64,000 bases of DNA from Acidobacteriota bacterium (GTDB lineage: Bacteria; Acidobacteriota; Holophagae; Acanthopleuribacterales; Acanthopleuribacteraceae), in the NCBI GenBank assembly GCA_030066195.1, contig JASJCB010000005.1, positions 62,001 through 126,000 of the forward strand, written 5' to 3'. The position numbers and the translations under genes are program-made. Numbering within the stretch: the first letter of the stretch is position 1; each line of letters starts with the position of its first letter. A model generated the notes under the pieces. It was not told the DNA's origin. It was given only the letters and a program-made list of their open reading frames with translations, and searched no databases. Below, in pieces: positions 8,773-63,433 of the stretch.

Positions 8773-9473
8773 CGCGCACTTCTCCCCTTGAGGTCGATTC
8801 AGTGACCCTTGTTTAATGAGGCGTTCATTAGGACAATGCGTAAAAGAAAAGGATATCGGCTCAGGAAACTGGTTTTTAACCTTTTCTTTACATTCTCATA
8901 ACATAGATTCGTCGGCGAGTCTGACCGGGTCGTCTTGTTTTCGACGATCGAATGCTTTGGTGAGAGAGGTTGCTTTTGGGTTGTCAATTGATCGGCTTTG
9001 TGAAGGGAAATTTCGGTCTTCTCGATGCATCACAACCCGGTACAAAGAAGGTTGTTGCTGCCCCGACAACCCCTCGTAAATGCATTTATGCAGATGTGCA
9101 CCGGGGACTATCCTTGTTTTGATCTCAATACATCGATGTCGGGACGGGTCGAGGCTTCTTCCAGTTCGGATAGATTGTTATTCGGGCAGGTCCATCTTTA
9201 TACGAAATCGGAAAGAAGGATGTCATCCGGGCGACATCCTTCTTTGAATACGAATAGACGGTTGTAACCGGGGGTATAAGCTTCCCTGACTGCAAAAATG
9301 CCTTTGTTCGGCGGGAGCGTACCTTGTTTTGGATAGAAGAGGAGGATGTGTCGATGTGTTCGGGCAGTTGATTCGGCCGAATAATCATGTGACGGCTGTG
9401 TCGCCGCCTCACAGGACGAGCCTTGAACTCTTGTTCTGTGGTATAGTCACCCTGGAATTAGCGTGGCAAGGGC
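8773..9473. other. Non-coding divergent intergenic region
   Basis: About 700 bases between the giant Ig-domain gene (leftward) and the pyruvyl-transferase-like gene (rightward). Short open frames here show no ribosome-binding site, no recognisable domain and low-complexity composition, so I treat it as non-coding. It must hold promoters for both flanking genes. TATAGT at 9442-9447 is a possible -10 for the rightward gene, without a convincing -35. The most distinct element is a perfect hairpin at 9212-9245, listed separately. Confidence 0.6.
9212..9245. terminator. Perfect 13-bp hairpin inside a divergent intergenic region
   Basis: AAAGAAGGATGTC at 9212-9224 pairs perfectly with 9233-9245 across an 8-base loop. 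The A/T ends give short U-rich tails on both strands, so it could act as a bidirectional terminator. Both annotated neighbours start on either side of it rather than end here, so a terminator would imply a short untranslated transcript. A small RNA or regulatory stem is an equally good reading. Confidence 0.45.
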
Positions 9474-16479: not shown

Positions 16480-16600
16480 GATTGTTCTCCTTTTACGCTC
16501 CGGAAGACACCCGGATTGGTGACGCGGGAAGGGCGAAAAAAACCGGGCACTTCATAAGTAAAGTATGTGCAAAATTTCTGCCCGATGCAACCTGTTCTTA

Positions 16601-17070
16601 CCCGGCACCCTGGTGAAACGGACGAAAGGGGTTTCCATTCCCGGGAAGATAACCGAACCGGGGTTAGTCGGGAGCACCATTCCCGAGCGGCGGTATTGTT
16701 GAATCGAAAAACACAACACCATTCCCGGGATCAGGTCCACCTGTGACGAAAAATCGGGTTTCAAGCCCGGAATGATGCCTACCTCATTACCGAAACAGAC
16801 CATCAATCCCGAAACAGAGTCCTCCGCGTGACGATTTTGACAACTTCAGCCCCGGAATCGACCTCCTTTCGCCGGCAGCTCGATAACCCCTGACCGGAGT
16901 AACAACCGAAATTGGGATTGAGTTGACCTGTTTTCCCGGGAAATGCCCTCTTTGAGCTCACCAACATGGTCACAAATCCGAGAACAGGACCACTCCACGC
17001 TCCCCAAACCGGTATCCTTCCCGGGAATGATGCTACCCTCGGCACGTTCAGGTAGTCCCATTCCCGAGCT
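16601..17070. repeat. Intergenic 42-bp-period repeat array with CCCG cores (array A)
   Basis: Non-coding DNA between the TonB receptor start and the CHAT gene end. A core of the form (A/T)TCCCGGGA, or its near variants, recurs with CCCG (or a one-base variant) at 16640, 16682, 16724, 16766, 16808, 16851, 16893, 16935, 16977, 17020 and 17063. Spacing is 42 or 43 bases every time; an extra CCCG at 16601 may be an outer unit. Several cores are palindromic (TTCCCGGGAA at 16638 and 16933). The sequence between cores is strongly diverged, so this is an old or functionally constrained phased array rather than a fresh tandem duplication. Open frames crossing it have no start signals. Confidence 0.85.
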
Positions 17071-33567: not shown

Positions 33568-34827
33568 CTATCGTTCGATCAATTTCAGGCAAGCCAGTTT
33601 GTGGTTGCCAAGCACATACAGCAGGCCGTGGGCCAATACCGGGCCGTTATAAGCCGGAGTGTCCACCAGCTTTTTCATGACCGCCTTTTCCCGATAGGCT
33701 TCCGGGGTTGCCTCGATCAGGCGCACGTCGCCGGATTCCGTGGTCACGATCAGGTGCCCGTCCACGTAAAGGGCGTTGGCATGACGCAGTCCGGGTTTTC
33801 GCCAGGCAAGTTCACCCGTATCCAACTTGACGCAACGCAGGTCGGAACCGCCGCCCATGCCGTGCGCACCGTAGAGATATCCCTTGTGATGGACCGGGGT
33901 GGACCAGTGCGCGGCCAGGTTGATCTTGCGCCGATCATCCTTGCGAATGAAGTCATAACCGCCGGGTTTGAAGCGCAACAGGGCGCCGCCGGGTCCGTAG
34001 GATTCGCTGATGAAGACCTTGTCGTCGACCACCACGGGCGTGGCCGCATTGACGCTTTCCAGGCGTTTCGCGCGCCAGGGCAAATAAAAATCCTGCTTGC
34101 CTTTATCCGGGTCAAAGGCCAGTAGACCACCCCTGGCGAAAACGAAGCACCACCAACGATCTCCGCGTTTCACCAGTCGCGGCGTGGCGTAACTCGCCAG
34201 TTCATCGCTCAACCGGTAGACTTCCTTGCCGGTTTTCTTGTCGAAGGCCACTACGCCGGTGCCGTTGCCTTGCACTTTTCCGCTCTGAATGCCCGGGCTG
34301 TCTTCGGGACTGCCGCCGACCTGGGTGATCAGCAACTTGCCGTGAACCACCGGAGAGGCGCCCACGCCGAAGAAGTTCTGAACGACGCCGTAGGTCTTCT
34401 TGGTATCGATATCCCAAACCAGCTTGCCGTTCTCGGCCTGGTGACAACGCAGACGCCCCTCGGCGCCGAAGGTATAGACCCGATCGCCGTCGATCAGTGG
34501 CGCTACCCGAGGCCCGTTGCTGAAACCGTACATATCGGCATAACGCGTGGGATAGGTCTTCTGCCAGATCTGCTTCCCGGTTGCAGCCTCATGGCAGGTA
34601 AGCCGAGCCAGATCGCCCTTGCGATCGAAAAGATAGAGGCGATCCCCGGCGATGGACGGTGCCGCGTATCCCTCACCGGTACGCAGTTCCCACACAACGG
34701 GTAAACCCTCGCCCCAGTCGGTGCGGATACCTTTTTCGAGCGAAACATTATCCTGGCCCGGTCCTAAAATAGCGGGCCAGTCACCAGGAGCCAGGGTAAA
34801 TAGCAAATATGTAAGCATTAACATCAT
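33568..34827 (-). CDS. Secreted PQQ-type beta-propeller protein
   Basis: 419 residues with a short signal peptide (MLMLTYLLFTLAPG). Repeated blade motifs such as CHEAATGKQIWQKTYP, CHQAENGKLVWDIDT and VKLDTGELAWRKPG are the PQQ-like (PF13360-type) repeats. It lacks quinoprotein dehydrogenase cofactor ligands that I can identify, so a scaffolding or binding role is more likely than catalysis. AGAGGA precedes the ATG at 34827. Its promoter region lies against or inside the phased repeat array B. Confidence 0.85.
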   Translation of the reverse strand: MMLMLTYLLFTLAPGDWPAILGPGQDNVSLEKGIRTDWGEGLPVVWELRTGEGYAAPSIAGDRLYLFDRKGDLARLTCHEAATGKQIWQKTYPTRYADMYGFSNGPRVAPLIDGDRVYTFGAEGRLRCHQAENGKLVWDIDTKKTYGVVQNFFGVGASPVVHGKLLITQVGGSPEDSPGIQSGKVQGNGTGVVAFDKKTGKEVYRLSDELASYATPRLVKRGDRWWCFVFARGGLLAFDPDKGKQDFYLPWRAKRLESVNAATPVVVDDKVFISESYGPGGALLRFKPGGYDFIRKDDRRKINLAAHWSTPVHHKGYLYGAHGMGGGSDLRCVKLDTGELAWRKPGLRHANALYVDGHLIVTTESGDVRLIEATPEAYREKAVMKKLVDTPAYNGPVLAHGLLYVLGNHKLACLKLIER

Positions 34828-34869: not shown

Positions 34870-35505
34870 ATACCGGCAACACCGATCGGGGTCAATCTAT
34901 TCCTGAAAGCCACCGGTCCGCCGGGAACAAAAAGCAGGCATGGGCAGACCGGTGCGAACCATCGGAAAACAAAAAACAAATGCCGACAAATCGATTCATC
35001 CATTTCGATCCAAAAAAGTACGCCCCCGTCTCCCAAAGGCAGCATCCGACACCTCGAAACTCAAATACGCTCGCCGACAACCGAACATCCCGGCCGAATA
35101 AACGACGCCCATGTTCCCGGGTAAAAAATTCCGGCCGGAGAAATCATAATTCACCTCTCCCGGCATCTACATCCCGGATCAAAAAGGTTAATACCCTTGA
35201 CAAATCCCCAACATCGCGGCCGAAAAAAGACCATACATGCATCCCTGTGTCAACATCCCCGCGTCGGGAACCTTCATTATGGATTTCGGAGGGTACCTCC
35301 TTCCGCCGGGGATGTACCCACTCGTGACATGTGGGTACCTCCTTGAGCGTAGGGGGTACCCTCCGGAATCCATACTCGTACTTCCTGAGCCGGGGAAGTA
35401 CACCTTGGAATTCCGACCCGTACATCCCCGGGCGAAAAAGGTAACCACGGGGCGCATGTGGGTACCTCCCTGAGGCAAGGTGGTAGCCATGGAGATACAT
35501 GTATG
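34870..35505. repeat. Intergenic 42-bp-period array with 21-bp-phased GTAC cores (array B)
   Basis: In the right half GTAC occurs at 35293, 35314, 35335, 35356, 35378, 35398, 35420 and 35462, with GTAA at 35441 and GTAG at 35483. Steps are 20-22 bases. Alternate sites have the forms GTACcTCC and tGTACCc, so the full unit is 42 bases. A(C/T)(A/C/T)TC(C/G)-type words carry the same 42-base phase leftward (35169, 35211, 35253, then 35295, 35337, 35380, 35422, 35464) and more weakly at 35085 and 35043. CCGG/CGGCCG words fill the left part. It is non-coding, between divergent genes. Confidence 0.85.
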
Positions 35506-35755
35506 GTCTTTTTTGAGGCTTCAAAAGGATGTCAAATCTACGCAAAAGTCTAAATAAATTACGGTTGTATGGTTTTGTTATTCAAGGCGCTGATTCGACG
35601 ACACAAAAGAAACCGTCGACGCTCGATATGGACAAATCCCAAACAGTGCAAAGCGTAAGTCGATCCGTCAAAGCGGCACACCGGTTTTCTATAATGAAAC
35701 CCCGACCGCTGTCGCCCATGTTCAAACCTTAAAGCAGGGAGATTCGTTTTTGCGT
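35506..35755. other. Intergenic sequence between array B and the next operon
   Basis: About 250 bases without a supported gene. A short open frame starting at 35529 lacks a ribosome site and recognisable composition. Confidence 0.5.
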
Positions 35756-35792: not shown

Positions 35793-36032
35793 GTGGCAAA
35801 TGCACTGGATCGGGAATGGACAACCTATCTAGCCCATAAACAAGATTTGCTCAAAAGAGGGCGCGGCCGTTTTGTTTTGATCAAGGGCGATCGTATTGTT
35901 GATTTCTATGATACGCAAAGAGATGCGGTGTATGCAGGCTATGAGCATTTCGGCTATGTCCCGTTTCTTGCTCATCGAGTTGTTGAGGACGAGCCGATCC
36001 ACAGGATTTTCCACCTGACGGATGTCCGCTAA
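35793..36032 (+). CDS. Small DUF5678-like protein, partner of retropepsin-like gene
   Basis: 79 residues from a GTG with a near-perfect ribosome site (AAGGAGGT). The pattern RFVLIKGDRIVDFYDTQRD, then A..AGYEHFGYVPFLAHRV, matches the short DUF5678-type family (gkyvaik.g.v......da...g...yg..p.fl..v). The stop codon abuts the next ATG (TAAATG), so the two genes are translationally linked. Such small proteins commonly neighbour retropepsin-like genes; the function is unknown. Confidence 0.65.
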   Translation: MANALDREWTTYLAHKQDLLKRGRGRFVLIKGDRIVDFYDTQRDAVYAGYEHFGYVPFLAHRVVEDEPIHRIFHLTDVR

Positions 36033-36464
36033 ATGCCGGTTACCCGAAAGCACCAACCAAATTTACGCCGGAACGGTCCTCTGGTCTCCATTCACATTGG
36101 ATTGGACGAGTTTGCTCAGCGGCTACGAACAACCATGGGTGAGGAACTTCCCGAAAAAATCGCAATCCAGGCAATGGTGGATACGGGGGCGGCTACGACT
36201 CTAATCGATCCGACAGCTTTAGATAGATTGGCCCCCGCACAAATTGATCAGGTCCAAATTCAAACACCTGGTTCTACCGGTATCATGTGTTCTCGCTATT
36301 GGCTGCGCTTACATTTACCTGATCAGATTAGCATGGAAATGCCGGTGATCGGCGCGGGCTTGGAAGGACAACATATCCAGTGTCTGCTTGGGAGAGATGT
36401 ACTAATGCATGCCGTTTTGGTTTATGACGGTCCCAAAGAATGTTTTTCTCTCAGTTTTGATTAG
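36033..36464 (+). CDS. Retropepsin-like aspartic protease
   Basis: 143 residues. The active-site motif AMVDTGAATTLID places the catalytic Asp at residue 50. The hydrophobic-hydrophobic-Gly partner motif is CLLGRDVLMHAVLVYDG near the C-terminus. One motif per chain means it would act as a homodimer, as in retroviral proteases. It has no signal peptide or anchor, so it is probably cytoplasmic. It starts directly after the stop of the DUF5678-like gene. Confidence 0.75.
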   Translation: MPVTRKHQPNLRRNGPLVSIHIGLDEFAQRLRTTMGEELPEKIAIQAMVDTGAATTLIDPTALDRLAPAQIDQVQIQTPGSTGIMCSRYWLRLHLPDQISMEMPVIGAGLEGQHIQCLLGRDVLMHAVLVYDGPKECFSLSFD

Positions 36465-53829: not shown

Positions 53830-54176
53830 GTGTGCCTTTGCCGCAATGCGCCCGGGACTGTTTGCGCGACTCAGTCCTCGCGGGCGGCAGGAAATGAAAA
53901 GATTGTGCGGGCCTCGCTCAAATGCGAAGCAAGAGGAAACGGCTGCTGCTCGTTATGGGGACCTGGTCATATCAACCGTAAATAATCACCCGGAAACCTC
54001 TGAGAAAAACTAGCCGGCCATGCCGACCTATTTTCAACATAGGTACGCGGACGCCGAAAGTCAAGTTTCAATCTCGTCGGCAACGCGGTGCGGCCTGCCC
54101 GCATCGGGGCGTGATTCAGATCAGGTCTCGTATTGTCAAATGATTGTCGATCAAGCGCAGGAGACGCTGAGATCCG
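53830..54176. other. Intergenic sequence upstream of the ABC-F gene
   Basis: About 350 bases between the ABC-F leader and array C. No gene with start signals is supported; a long open frame that covers this and the array is not conserved in the second array copy. Confidence 0.5.
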
Positions 54177-54482
54177 GTTGTGATTGGTTGTCTCGATAAA
54201 TCGAGGATCAAAGAATTGGTCCTGATTCCTCGACCCGGAAAAGTCAGGAGCAAAGAATGAGGCCTGATTCCTCGACCCGGAAAAGTCAGGAGCAAAGAAT
54301 GTAAACTGATTTTTTGCGCCCCGAAAAGTAATGTGAAAGAAATCAGTTGTGGGTCCTTGACCCGGAAAAGTCGGAACAAAGGAAGAGAACTGATTCTTCG
54401 ATCCTGAACTTTCGGTGCGCAAAGAATGAGGACTGATTCTTTGCGCACCGACTTTCAGTATCGAGAAATCGGGGCTCATTTC
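54177..54482 (-). repeat. 42-bp-period intergenic array (array C), inverted copy of array D
   Basis: CTGATT or CTCATT cores lie at 54222, 54264, 54306, 54390, 54433 and 54475, with one degenerate unit at the expected 54348 position. Steps are 42 or 43 bases. Units follow the pattern AATGAGnnCTGATT, with a spacer like CGACCCGGAAAAGTC. A perfect 15-bp hairpin (54413-54427 with 54436-54450, loop of 8) covers one core. Its reverse complement matches 63113-63433 unit for unit, including the degenerate unit. A deduced 14-residue protein repeat exists in one frame, but stops break that frame in the other copy. Confidence 0.9.
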
Positions 54483-55051
54483 TTGACTCTCGGCGGCACC
54501 AATCAACGAATTACGGAGTAATACAAGGTTCTGCTTTGTAAAGAACCTTGATTTAGCTATATTTGGTTGTCAAATAGGAAAAAGGATTGTCTCATGCCGA
54601 GGAGCCGAAAATCCCCGCGAGTCGATCGATTGAAAACCAACTGACTCACCACCTCGTCCAAGGCTTAAAATAACGAGTCAACAGCATCAATTGATGAAGG
54701 TCGAGAACTCTATCAGGCGAATCAGCCATGATTATCGATTTACTGGAAAATTGGTCTCTGACACTGAGTCACTGATCTATGAACCGGGGCTGGTCATTCA
54801 AGAAAGTGCCTAGCAGGAAACCTGTGACTTGTTTATTTTCACAGTTTTGCATTGTGAACCTTTCTTCATATTTGTTGACTAGGACAGTTAAACAGAGCTT
54901 TTCTTCAATATCATCTTGACGGATGAAAACAACTGCTTATATTTAAGTAGTATCAGACACGATAAAAATTCTATCAACTGCCTATTTAATGCAGATTGGC
55001 TGTTTTGGATTTGTATATCGTGATTGCTTAAAAATCCCTAAGGAGACAAAT
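54483..55051. other. AT-rich intergenic region
   Basis: About 570 bases, clearly AT-richer than its surroundings from about 54540. No coding sequence, tRNA or insertion-sequence end is visible. It must hold the promoter of the small secreted protein gene. Confidence 0.5.
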
Positions 55052-57875: not shown

Positions 57876-60489
57876 GCGAAAACTCGGAACGCATGCAAGC
57901 CAAGCATCGCCCTCCGGGCGAGGCGAAAACCCTGGGCGCGCACGCATCCTGCGTGCCTGCAAGCCGAGAATCGCCCTCCGGGCGAGGCGAGGTGGAACCC
58001 CTGGGCGCGCACGCATCCTGCGTGCTCTTCCTTGGGGTGGTCATTTGCTGTCGGTTAAGTTTTATTTCTCCCTGGCCACGATCCGCCTCGCCTCGCCCTC
58101 GGGGCGATTCTCGGTTTGCATGCACGCTGGAAGCGTGCGCGCCCAGGGGTGCATGCACGCTCGAGAATTCCTGGTATGGGGTGCCGTCTTCCTCTCCGAA
58201 ACGAACTGTTACGGCAGGGTGCCTTTTCAGCACCTTTTCGAAGGCTAGGCGCAGCTGATCGGGTTCTTTAAGGCCCTCGATACGGGTGGCGAAGTGCAGG
58301 TTGTAGGCCGCGTTTTCCGGGGCGAAGCGTTGTAGGAAGTACAAGCCTTCCTGGTTGGGAGCCAGGGGGAAGCGATCCGGTATGGTTTGCTTTTCCCCGG
58401 TGGTTTCGACCGTTTGATCAAAGGCATCCAGGCAGGCGGCTTCCAGTGCGGCCAGATGCGGACTGTCCAACAGCTTGACCACGGGAATTCGGATACCGAG
58501 GTCCTTCTCCAAACGGTGCAGTAGTTCAATGGCGGCGATGGAGTCGAGACCCATGGCCGGCAGCGGCAGGTTAGGGTCGATGGTCCGCGTGCGCAGGGTG
58601 TTACAGATCTGCCCGCGGAACCAGCGGGAGAACAGTTCGGCGCGGTCCTCGGCCGTCGAGAGGGTTGCCCGGTCCAAATCCGGGATTTCGATGTCTTCCG
58701 CCACCTCGGCGATATCTTGGGCGATCACGGCCAGGGCGCCTTGAAGATAACCCTCGCGGGCGCCGAAACGCCGGATCTTGCCCGAGGAGGTTTTGGGCAC
58801 ACCGCCCGGCTTCAACAGCAGCAGGCCGTGGAGTTGCAGCTCGAAGGCGTCGGCCACGGCGGCGCGAACGGCCGCCGTGACCTCGTCCGCGTTCAGGTTG
58901 CGCACGTGTTGCCGCTCCACTTCCTGGGCGATCACCAGGCGTTCCTCGCCGCCTTCCTCCAGCGAGAAGGCCGCGCCGCAGCCGGGCCGCAGGGCGGGGT
59001 GCGCCGCCTCGGCAACCTTCTCGATATCGGTGGGGTAATAGTTGCGACCGCGCACGATGACCAGGTCCTTCAGGCGGCCGGTGACGTACAGTTGACCCTC
59101 GTTGAGGAAACCCAAGTCGCCCGTGCGCAGGAAAGGGCCCTCGCCGTCGGCGGTGTGGGCGTTGAAGGCGTATTCGGTTGCATCGGGCCGGTTCCAATAA
59201 CCGCCGGCAACGCTGGGACCGGCAAACCAGATCTCGCCGATGTGGTTCTGATCCAACGCCTCGCCGGTTTCGGGATCTACGATCAGCAGTTGGTGGTCGG
59301 GTCGCGGCCGGCCGCAGCCCACCAGGGGCAGGTGCTCGTCCTCGCGATGGGTCCAAACGGCGAAGTTGCGTTCCAGGGCGCGTTTGTCGGCCCATTGGAC
59401 GGCGGGTTGCTCGTCACGTTCGACACCGGTCATGAAAAGCGTGGCTTCGGCCATGCCGTAGCAGGGGTAGAAGGTTTGCGGCGTGAAACCCAGGGGCCGG
59501 AAGGTCTCGGCGAACTTGCCCAGCGAGGCGGCGCGGATGGGTTCGGCCCCGTTGAAGGCCACGCGCCAGCCGCTCAGGTCAAGACCTTTCAAGCGTTCCG
59601 GGTCCATGCGGCGCAGGATCAACTCGTAGGCGAAGTTGGGACCGCCGGCCAGGGTGCCTTTGAACTTGTGTATCGCCTCCAGCCAGCAGAGCGGGTCTTG
59701 AATAAAGTCCATGGAAGTCAACAGCACGGCGGGAATGCCGCGATAGAGCGGGTGCAGTACGGCGCCGATCAAACCCATGTCGTGGTAGAGCGGCAACCAA
59801 CTGACGACCACATCGCCGTCATTACTACCGAAGGCTTCGCCGATTGCCTTTTCATTGGCGACCAGGTTGCCGTGAGTGACCATGACGCCCTTGGGTACGC
59901 CGGTGGAACCGGAGGTATATTGCAGAAAAGCCAGGGTTCCGGGCTGAATTTGAGGCGGTTCCCAGCTTGCGGCGTCGTCGACGGTATCGGTAGCGTGTAC
60001 CTCGGGGGCGTGCGGAGCCTGTAGGAAGAAGGTTTCTATCTTGGGTCGCAGGTCGGCGGTGGTCAAAGCCAGGCGGGCGCCGCAGTTTTCCAGGACGCGA
60101 GCCACCCGTTCCAGCTTCTGACGGGCGCGCGGTGGATAGAGGGGTACGGCAATCACGCCCGCGTACAGGCAGCCCAGGAAAGCTTCCACATAATCCAAAC
60201 CGGGGGGAAAGAACAGCAGCACCCTGTCGCCGGGTTGCGTCCGGCGTTGCAGCCAACCCGCGACGACGCGGGCGCGGCAATCCAGTTGCGCATAGCCGAC
60301 CGCTCGCTCGTTCGCTCCCCGATGACTCAAGAATACATAGGCGCGACGCCCGGCTTGGACCTCGGCTCGGGTGCGCAGGATGTGGACCAGCGAACCGGCT
60401 TCTCGAATATCCTGTGCGTCTACCGCTTCGCCGACGGCTGGAATACGGCTGTAGCAACCGCTCCCCCGCAATAAGACAGGTGTGGACAT
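57808..60489 (-). CDS. Fatty-acyl-AMP ligase-ACP fused to a truncated condensation domain
   Basis: 893 residues. A FAAL domain (about 20-600) shows TSGSTGVPKG, NGAEPI, YGMAEATLF and TGDLGFL. A carrier domain follows with the phosphopantetheine serine Ser650 (GLDSIAA). A condensation domain then begins (FPLAPNQEGLYFLQRFAPEN) but breaks after about 78 residues (Tyr-Gln-Glu-Phe at about 58165), with no HHxxxDG. From there the frame reads through a repeat block and the antisense of the NqrM-like gene. It should activate a fatty acid and load it on the carrier, starting a lipopeptide. GGGAGG precedes the ATG. Downstream condensation is lost. Confidence 0.85.
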   Translation of the reverse strand: MSTPVLLRGSGCYSRIPAVGEAVDAQDIREAGSLVHILRTRAEVQAGRRAYVFLSHRGANERAVGYAQLDCRARVVAGWLQRRTQPGDRVLLFFPPGLDYVEAFLGCLYAGVIAVPLYPPRARQKLERVARVLENCGARLALTTADLRPKIETFFLQAPHAPEVHATDTVDDAASWEPPQIQPGTLAFLQYTSGSTGVPKGVMVTHGNLVANEKAIGEAFGSNDGDVVVSWLPLYHDMGLIGAVLHPLYRGIPAVLLTSMDFIQDPLCWLEAIHKFKGTLAGGPNFAYELILRRMDPERLKGLDLSGWRVAFNGAEPIRAASLGKFAETFRPLGFTPQTFYPCYGMAEATLFMTGVERDEQPAVQWADKRALERNFAVWTHREDEHLPLVGCGRPRPDHQLLIVDPETGEALDQNHIGEIWFAGPSVAGGYWNRPDATEYAFNAHTADGEGPFLRTGDLGFLNEGQLYVTGRLKDLVIVRGRNYYPTDIEKVAEAAHPALRPGCGAAFSLEEGGEERLVIAQEVERQHVRNLNADEVTAAVRAAVADAFELQLHGLLLLKPGGVPKTSSGKIRRFGAREGYLQGALAVIAQDIAEVAEDIEIPDLDRATLSTAEDRAELFSRWFRGQICNTLRTRTIDPNLPLPAMGLDSIAAIELLHRLEKDLGIRIPVVKLLDSPHLAALEAACLDAFDQTVETTGEKQTIPDRFPLAPNQEGLYFLQRFAPENAAYNLHFATRIEGLKEPDQLRLAFEKVLKRHPAVTVRFGEEDGTPYQEFSSVHAPLGAHASSVHANRESPRGRGEADRGQGEIKLNRQQMTTPRKSTQDACAPRGSTSPRPEGDSRLAGTQDACAPRVFASPGGRCLACMRSEFSLKPAKAGDRCVPSWCGADWKYC
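57896..58164. repeat. Palindromic repeat block that truncates the condensation domain
   Basis: Two direct copies (57896-57959 and 57960-58026) of a 64-67-base unit, each containing GCCCTCCGGGC and GCACGCATCCTGCGTGC palindromes. One inverted copy follows at about 58078-58160. Its edge coincides with the point where condensation-domain homology ends. A diverged copy may lie at 63468-63515 (CGCCTCGC...ATCTCGGCTTGC). It resembles short interspersed repeats that read as CAPR/GAHAS-type peptide in many annotations. Confidence 0.8.
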
Positions 60490-63112: not shown

Positions 63113-63433
63113 CGGGTCGAGGAATGAGCCCTGATTTCTCGATTCCAAAAGTCGGAGATCAAAGAATCAGTCCTCATTCTTTGCGCACCGAAAGTTCAGG
63201 ATCAAAGAATGAGATCTGATTCTTTGCTCCCGAAAAGTCCGGGTCAAGGAACCACAACTGATTTCTTTCACATTACTTTTCAGTGCGCAAAGAATGAGAT
63301 CCGATTCTTTGCTCCTGGCTTTTCCGGGTCGAAGAATGAGGACTGATCCTTTGCTCCTGACTTTTCCGGGTCGAGGAATGAGAACGGATTCTTTGATGCC
63401 GGCTTTTCCGACACAACCAATGACAACCCCGTT
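63113..63433 (+). repeat. 42-bp-period intergenic array (array D), inverted copy of array C
   Basis: AAT(G/C)AG cores lie at 63123, 63165, 63208, 63293, 63335 and 63377, with AATGAC at 63419 and one degenerate unit near 63250. All steps are 42 or 43 bases. Consensus of the unit is roughly AATGAGnnCTGATT-CTTTGCTCC-TGACTTTTCCGGGTCGAGG. It aligns with the reverse complement of 54177-54482 over the whole length. A typical core is flanked by TTTCTTTCAC or GCGCAAAG palindromes. It lies upstream of the leftward propeller gene and downstream of the thioesterase gene. Confidence 0.9.

Follow-up and report, generated by a model that had tools for sequence, protein, structure and literature searches.

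A dispersed, strictly intergenic palindrome array with a 42-bp register in a genome of the Acidobacteriota

Between two divergent genes of an Acidobacteriota bacterium lies a ladder of GTAC words, and the question raised by this locus is whether the ladder serves its two neighbours, the host genome as a whole, or neither. The ladder, designated array B, is located in a stretch of 64,000 nucleotides, which is called the window here. The initial annotation of this stretch described GTAC sites placed every 20–22 bases, and offered three candidate roles, namely a cooperative DNA-binding protein, a nucleoid-organising site, or paired-site control of the divergent genes at 34827 and 35793.

The ten positions given there for GTAC or near-GTAC words were all correct. 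Exact GTAC is found at 35293, 35314, 35335, 35356, 35378, 35398, 35420 and 35462, with GTAA at 35441 and GTAG at 35483, and linear regression over the ten positions put the period at 21.14 bp (residual sd 0.30 bp). The longest chain of GTAC words at 20–22 bp spacing had 7 sites, while the maximum was 2 in 2000 dinucleotide shuffles of 34870–35505. The whole 64-kb window contains seven GTAC pairs at this spacing, six of them in array B. The autocorrelation at lag 42 was 0.434, as compared with 0.258 ± 0.018 for the shuffled sequences (z = 10), and lags 127 and 85 gave z = 7.4 and 5.3, respectively; none of the 2000 shuffles reached any of these three values. Lag 21 by itself was weak (z = 3.2, matched by 1 of 2000 shuffles). 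Because lag 42 is strong and lag 21 is weak, the unit of array B is 42 bp with two half-sites, in agreement with the annotated unit. The unit measures 42.3 bp and its dyad axes are separated by about 21 bp; a pitch of 42 bp is four turns of B-DNA.

The annotated extent of the array, 34870–35505, held only in part. A map drawn in rows of 42 bp showed the register from 34906 to 35545 (about 630 bp, about 15 units), but its GTAC-bearing section is limited to 35291–35487. In 34906–35250 the register is carried by A-tracts, in which runs of five or more A lie at phase 15.5–18 of 42 in 6 of 7 cases (left-arm A-run phases modulo 42: 16.0, 16.5, 15.5, 16.0 and 16.5). The features are listed below in window coordinates, and those without a sign have no strand.

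34906–35545: whole 42-bp register and extent of array B, about 15 units (register map; lag 42)
34931–35214: left arm, A-tract half-units every 42 bp (alignment; A-run phases)
35215–35520 (+): core common to 14 aligned copies, mean column identity 79% (alignment)
35223–35239 (+): AAAAAAGACCATACATG, inverted match of CATGTATGGTCTTTTTT
35498–35514 (−): CATGTATGGTCTTTTTT, right partner of AAAAAAGACCATACATG
35281–35371: central long palindrome/hairpin, 91 bp, dyad 35326, 33 predicted pairs
35318–35334: apex of the central palindrome, in either orientation among copies (flip)
35293–35296: GTAC site 1 (GTAC in 13 of 14 copies)
35314–35317: GTAC site 2 (11 of 14)
35335–35338: GTAC site 3 (13 of 14)
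35356–35359: GTAC site 4 (13 of 14)
35378–35381: GTAC site 5 (9 of 14)
35398–35401: GTAC site 6 (11 of 14)
35420–35423: GTAC site 7 (11 of 14)
35441–35444: site 8, degenerate (GTAA)
35462–35465: site 9, GTAC in the window copy (in just 4 of 14)
35483–35486: site 10, GTAG in the window copy (GTAG in 11 of 14)
35378–35501 (−): second, weaker long-palindrome module, lying 127 bp beyond the first (match of model R1, G000:C3:97378-97501; lag 127)
33568–34827 (−): flanking gene outside the element, PQQ_2 (PF13360) beta-propeller repeat protein
35793–36032 (+): flanking small ORF outside the element, 79 aa, no Pfam match

The genes flanking array B are ordinary. Directly after the 79-aa ORF, a small retropepsin/aspartyl-protease-like ORF lies at 36033–36464 (PF13650 and PF00077 above cut-off).

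The half-sites are opposed, as had been annotated, and the dyads lie at about 35305, 35326, 35347, 35389.5, 35453 and 35474.5. Across 14 copies the dyad axes are 21 bp or multiples of it apart, and the strongest is the one at 35326. Within the central palindrome around this axis, the GTAC words pair with one another across the dyad. There, 93% of the cells were paired, as compared with 33–54% when the alignment was slid, and a slide of one base destroyed the pairing. Changes on both sides were present at 10 of the 33 pairs, and the covariation score was reached by 0 of 500 shuffles. The GTAC columns are the most conserved columns of the element (0.89 versus 0.79 for the rest of the 14 aligned copies, p = 0.0009). 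The spacers vary more than the cores while the phase is kept, as the annotation had proposed. The indel rate of the element is low (45 substitutions per indel). A length constraint deduced from this rarity was dropped, because a neighbouring non-core control stretch was equally indel-poor, and the low rate is not specific support for a protein-bound array.

Array B is not unique to the window locus. The host genome (11.6 Mb in 407 contigs) contains about 18 homologous places with 69–87% identity by DNA search, and a covariance model of the central part found at least 16 full copies and additional fragments. The same model found 0 copies in six other genomes of the same family, and searching the DNA of 60 relatives, as well as plasmids and phages, gave no match. 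A 19-mer match in a viral contig looks like chance, as the surrounding array is absent there. The nearest RpoB in the GTDB contigs belongs to a Holophagae MAG (87% over 517 aa), and this genome, 8_bin.70 (sample G004 below), carries neither family B nor family A, another array family of the window. The best-shared part of element B is 35215–35520 and the longest shared stretch is 34931–35536 (in L009), and the conservation fades outwards with no sharp ends. The left arm is fully kept only in some copies (L009 and L012) and partly in L011 and L014. Two contigs of the genome, C142 and C403 of G000, end within the central palindrome of B copies, and therefore the true copy number is likely above that of the assembly. 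In families A, B and C, every copy lay clear of predicted genes. Array B is thus a copy of a genome-specific, dispersed, non-coding and strictly intergenic DNA element.

The placement of the copies bears on the regulatory role that had been suggested for the divergent genes. Using a simple, purpose-written gene finder, 8 of the 14 copies with both neighbours were located between convergent genes, as compared with 16 of 85 long gaps (p = 0.005). Only three of the 14 lay between divergent genes. The window copy, which sits between two start codons as a cis-regulatory region of 34827 and 35793 would, is one of these three, and it is therefore unlikely to serve these two neighbours specifically. 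The same element is found beside unrelated genes at at least 16 places, mostly between convergent genes, and promoter-like sites were not above chance. A cis-regulatory function of the window copy is already largely refuted by these dispersed copies, and we consider it very improbable.

The convergent placement would also suit a structured RNA or a bidirectional transcription terminator, in which the long hairpin and its T-run would work at the transcript level, between convergent genes for instance. The predicted fold of array B is very stable (z = −9.4), and T6 and A6 runs are present at the outer stem. RNA hairpins tolerate G-U but not A-C pairs, whereas in DNA both are the same change seen on opposite strands. 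When every antidiagonal pair of the central dyad was counted, 35 G-T and 31 A-C mismatch cells were found. The two mismatches are equally common, so that a G-U preference exists on neither strand, a result that would be expected for DNA but not for an RNA hairpin. A G-U preference seen among the RNAalifold pairs was due to the program's own selection and vanished in this full count. Although cells from related copies are not independent, the comparison favours a DNA-level rather than an RNA-level symmetry of the palindrome. No Rfam family reached its gathering score in the window, and a mir-942 match was far below its cut-off. Terminator-like sites were not above shuffles, none of them was at the outer stem of array B, and the window element itself sits between divergent genes. 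From these results, action as RNA appears improbable, though less so than regulation of the two neighbours.

To learn how general the pitch is, intergenic gaps of at least 230 bp were scanned for periodicity at any lag of 15–130. In a first sample of 464 kb of the same genome, 12 of the 15 periodic gaps had a period of 41–42.5 bp or its double. A second sample (about 0.38 Mb) came from contigs that were in part known to carry family A, but from regions away from those copies; there the pitch was 41–43 bp in 8 of 9. Together, 20 of the 24 periodic intergenic arrays of this genome have a 41–43 bp pitch, as compared with 0 of 28 in samples of the same-family genomes G002, G004 and G006, or 1 of 28 if lag 84 is counted (Fisher p = 8e-11 or 2e-9, respectively). 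The arrays with this pitch fell into 13 clusters unrelated by sequence, although several clusters carry a TTCCCGGGAA-like core and the comparison would not join such arrays. Some of them, array D and L115/L297, keep only a palindromic core at 42-bp intervals, with dissimilar DNA separating the cores, and others (L285, L302 and L287) are tandem, nearly identical 42–43 bp arrays that resemble recent expansions. A count of 6-bp palindrome spacings in the sampled sequence showed an excess at 82 bp only. With 20 arrays in roughly 0.84 Mb of sampled sequence, about 270 would be expected in the 11.6 Mb. The earlier suggestion that the sites are placed on one face of the helix gains support from the occurrence of this pitch in many unrelated arrays of the genome.

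The window itself also contains 42-bp arrays with sequences other than that of B. Array A (54173–54498 and 63116–63428) has a unit of about 42 bp with CAAAGAATNNNNNNNNATTCTTTG plus CCCGGAAAAGTC. It has 70 copies genome-wide, of which 35 were aligned at 82–90% identity, with flanks conserved to about 560 bp, and just 2 of 30 lie between convergent genes. A pattern search for family A in GTDB genome contigs gave no match. Array C (8987–9410) has a 42-bp period and no kinship to A. Seven further genome places match it at 72–78%, one of them partially, and a single weak reversed match of 48 bp connects it with B. Array D (16550–16880) repeats a ATTCCCGGGA-type core every 42 bp in about eight units, and the sequence separating the cores is dissimilar. 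At 57894–58025 there are two 64-bp repeats in tandem (GCAAGCCAAGAATCGCCCTCCGGGCGAGGCG...), whose period differs from that of the other arrays. Outside the window, a 43-bp palindrome array, GTAGG...CAACGTTG...CCTACTTACT, occurs at L302 11500–11800 and L020 2740–3010. Intergenic tandem arrays of 41–43 bp occur at L285 290–600, L287 14800–15130, L117 6530–7100, L119 2830–3300, L131 19520–19900 and L286 15060–15290. Several of these six are unrelated by sequence and some are nearly perfect; L287 is A-like, and L117, L119 and L131 form a group.

Among known repeats, element B most invites comparison with BIME/REP sequences, which are dispersed intergenic palindromic units with regular spacing and opposed orientation (PMC2817692). 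Such elements can form either a single large hairpin or several individual ones, and a REP is defined as a palindrome of 20–40 bp that bears a GTAG or CGTC tag at one end (PMC3733652). Regularly spaced palindromes of alternating orientation, the intergenic location and the many copies are shared by element B. However, it has no 20–40 bp stem-loop whose foot is tagged by GTAG or CGTC, and its GTAC words (GTAG at site 10) lie inside the palindrome. It also differs in the 42-bp helical register over about 630 bp, in GTAC or other dyads every 21 bp, and in that several unrelated sequence families have one pitch. A further feature of REP/BIME sequences is their binding by gyrase, IHF or Pol I. No RAYT gene adjoins any B copy, and a RAYT-borne REP origin was rejected, as the genome has seven Y1_Tnp matches and their flanks carry other repeats. 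RAYT-type Y1 transposase genes at L046 and at L045 and L048 have REP-like repeats of their own (CCCAGGGCGTTGCCCTGGG; GGAATACCTCATAGC), which are distinct from the 42-bp arrays. At L046, similar genes that by eye appear formylglycine-sulfatase-like lie inverted on both sides. A 450-bp inverted repeat around one RAYT gene looks, from the ORF translations, like a duplicated formylglycine-sulfatase-like gene. By the tested features, element B is not a REP/BIME, but its working would be BIME-like.

ERIC is an enterobacterial intergenic imperfect palindrome of about 127 bp. Array B also has 127-bp modules, but here 127 bp is three 42-bp units. Element B resembles a MITE or other non-autonomous DNA element in being short, non-coding, multi-copy, rich in inverted repeats and intergenic. 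It differs in that its true ends have no terminal inverted repeat and its conservation fades outwards rather than ending sharply. The A6/T6 pair (AAAAAAGACCATACATG/CATGTATGGTCTTTTTT) is internal, with homology running on outside, so that a transposon with terminal inverted repeats was rejected. A target-site duplication was not visible at the edges of family A, and the ends of B are too eroded. Arrays of dimeric operators or partition sites have dyads on one helical face, conserved cores and variable spacers, and the phased-array feature is borne out in B, where core sites are more conserved than spacers in a fixed helical phase. In contrast to such arrays, B is dispersed in many copies away from a cognate gene, and each 42-bp family here has its own core sequence.

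Array B might also be a selfish or mutational by-product without host function, and we consider this almost as likely as the reading that we prefer. A palindromic repeat would spread between genes by some transposase acting in trans, its units would multiply by slippage and be made palindromic by template switching, and the pitch would be that of the array-making machinery. Many copies of graded divergence in one genome only are consistent with this, as are the tandem, near-identical and unrelated 42–43 bp arrays (L285, L302 and L287). The apex of the central palindrome is the only flipped site of B, and seven copy pairs are exact reverse complements there over 17 bp. Template switching between inverted repeats is described to cause such spacer inversion together with homogenisation of the arms (PMC8604942). 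In family A some palindrome centres are apparently present in both orientations, but an exact-match test (13–17 bp) scored none. The truncated copies L025 and L020 are both broken at the apex, and in L020 an unrelated 43-bp palindrome array resembling the one in L302 takes the place of the missing left half of B, with the junction exactly at the apex of the hairpin; as two cases are few, the breaks are only a hint. The SbcD-containing complex cuts hairpins, and SbcD is encoded in the genome. On the other side, no transposase or other gene recurred beside 55 loci, except for common sensor kinases, and the RAYT-type transposases of the genome are flanked by other repeats. Neither a target-site duplication nor clean terminal repeats were seen. 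Slippage alone is not expected to produce conserved GTAC cores with variable spacers. A by-product explains the flips, the breaks and the recent tandem arrays well, and the conserved cores with variable spacers badly.

We prefer, with a probability of roughly 0.4, that array B is a helically phased palindrome platform of double-stranded DNA for a dimeric protein, with a BIME-like working. From the pattern of the sequence we infer the protein binding, the organisation of supercoiling or of the nucleoid as its purpose, and the origin of the flips. In each 42-bp unit a pair of half-sites with dyad symmetry is separated by two helical turns, and the outer units add an A-tract in the same register. 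A dimeric DNA-binding protein may then sit on one face of the DNA every two or four turns, and the bound platform could organise or constrain supercoiling between transcription units, mostly convergent ones, in the manner proposed for BIMEs. The apex flips would arise by template switching at the palindrome. Against the platform, the core sequences differ among the arrays, and one protein could not read all of them by sequence, so that the platform would require either many paralogues or a protein that reads shape. In addition, the placement is not common to the families, since A is rarely between convergent genes. The fixed pitch is explained outright neither by a platform nor by a by-product.

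A wider proposal, which we regard as possible but doubtful, is a genome-wide intergenic class defined by architecture. It would comprise hundreds of sequence-unrelated palindrome arrays with one 42-bp pitch, maintained or produced by a single lineage-specific factor that the relatives lack. Such a factor could be a nucleoid protein that forms filaments or reads shape, or else a polymerase or recombinase that makes arrays.

The definition of dispersed bacterial repeats rests on sequence; in this genome, what many unrelated arrays have in common is their spacing, which equals a whole number of helical turns. Were a protein to read the 42-bp spacing, a nucleoid-organising code would be visible in the bare sequence. 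If a mutational machine makes the arrays, the fixed 42-bp step would be a measurable footprint of that machine. In either case, the question becomes what differs between the host genome and the members of its family without the pitch, and this can be tested.
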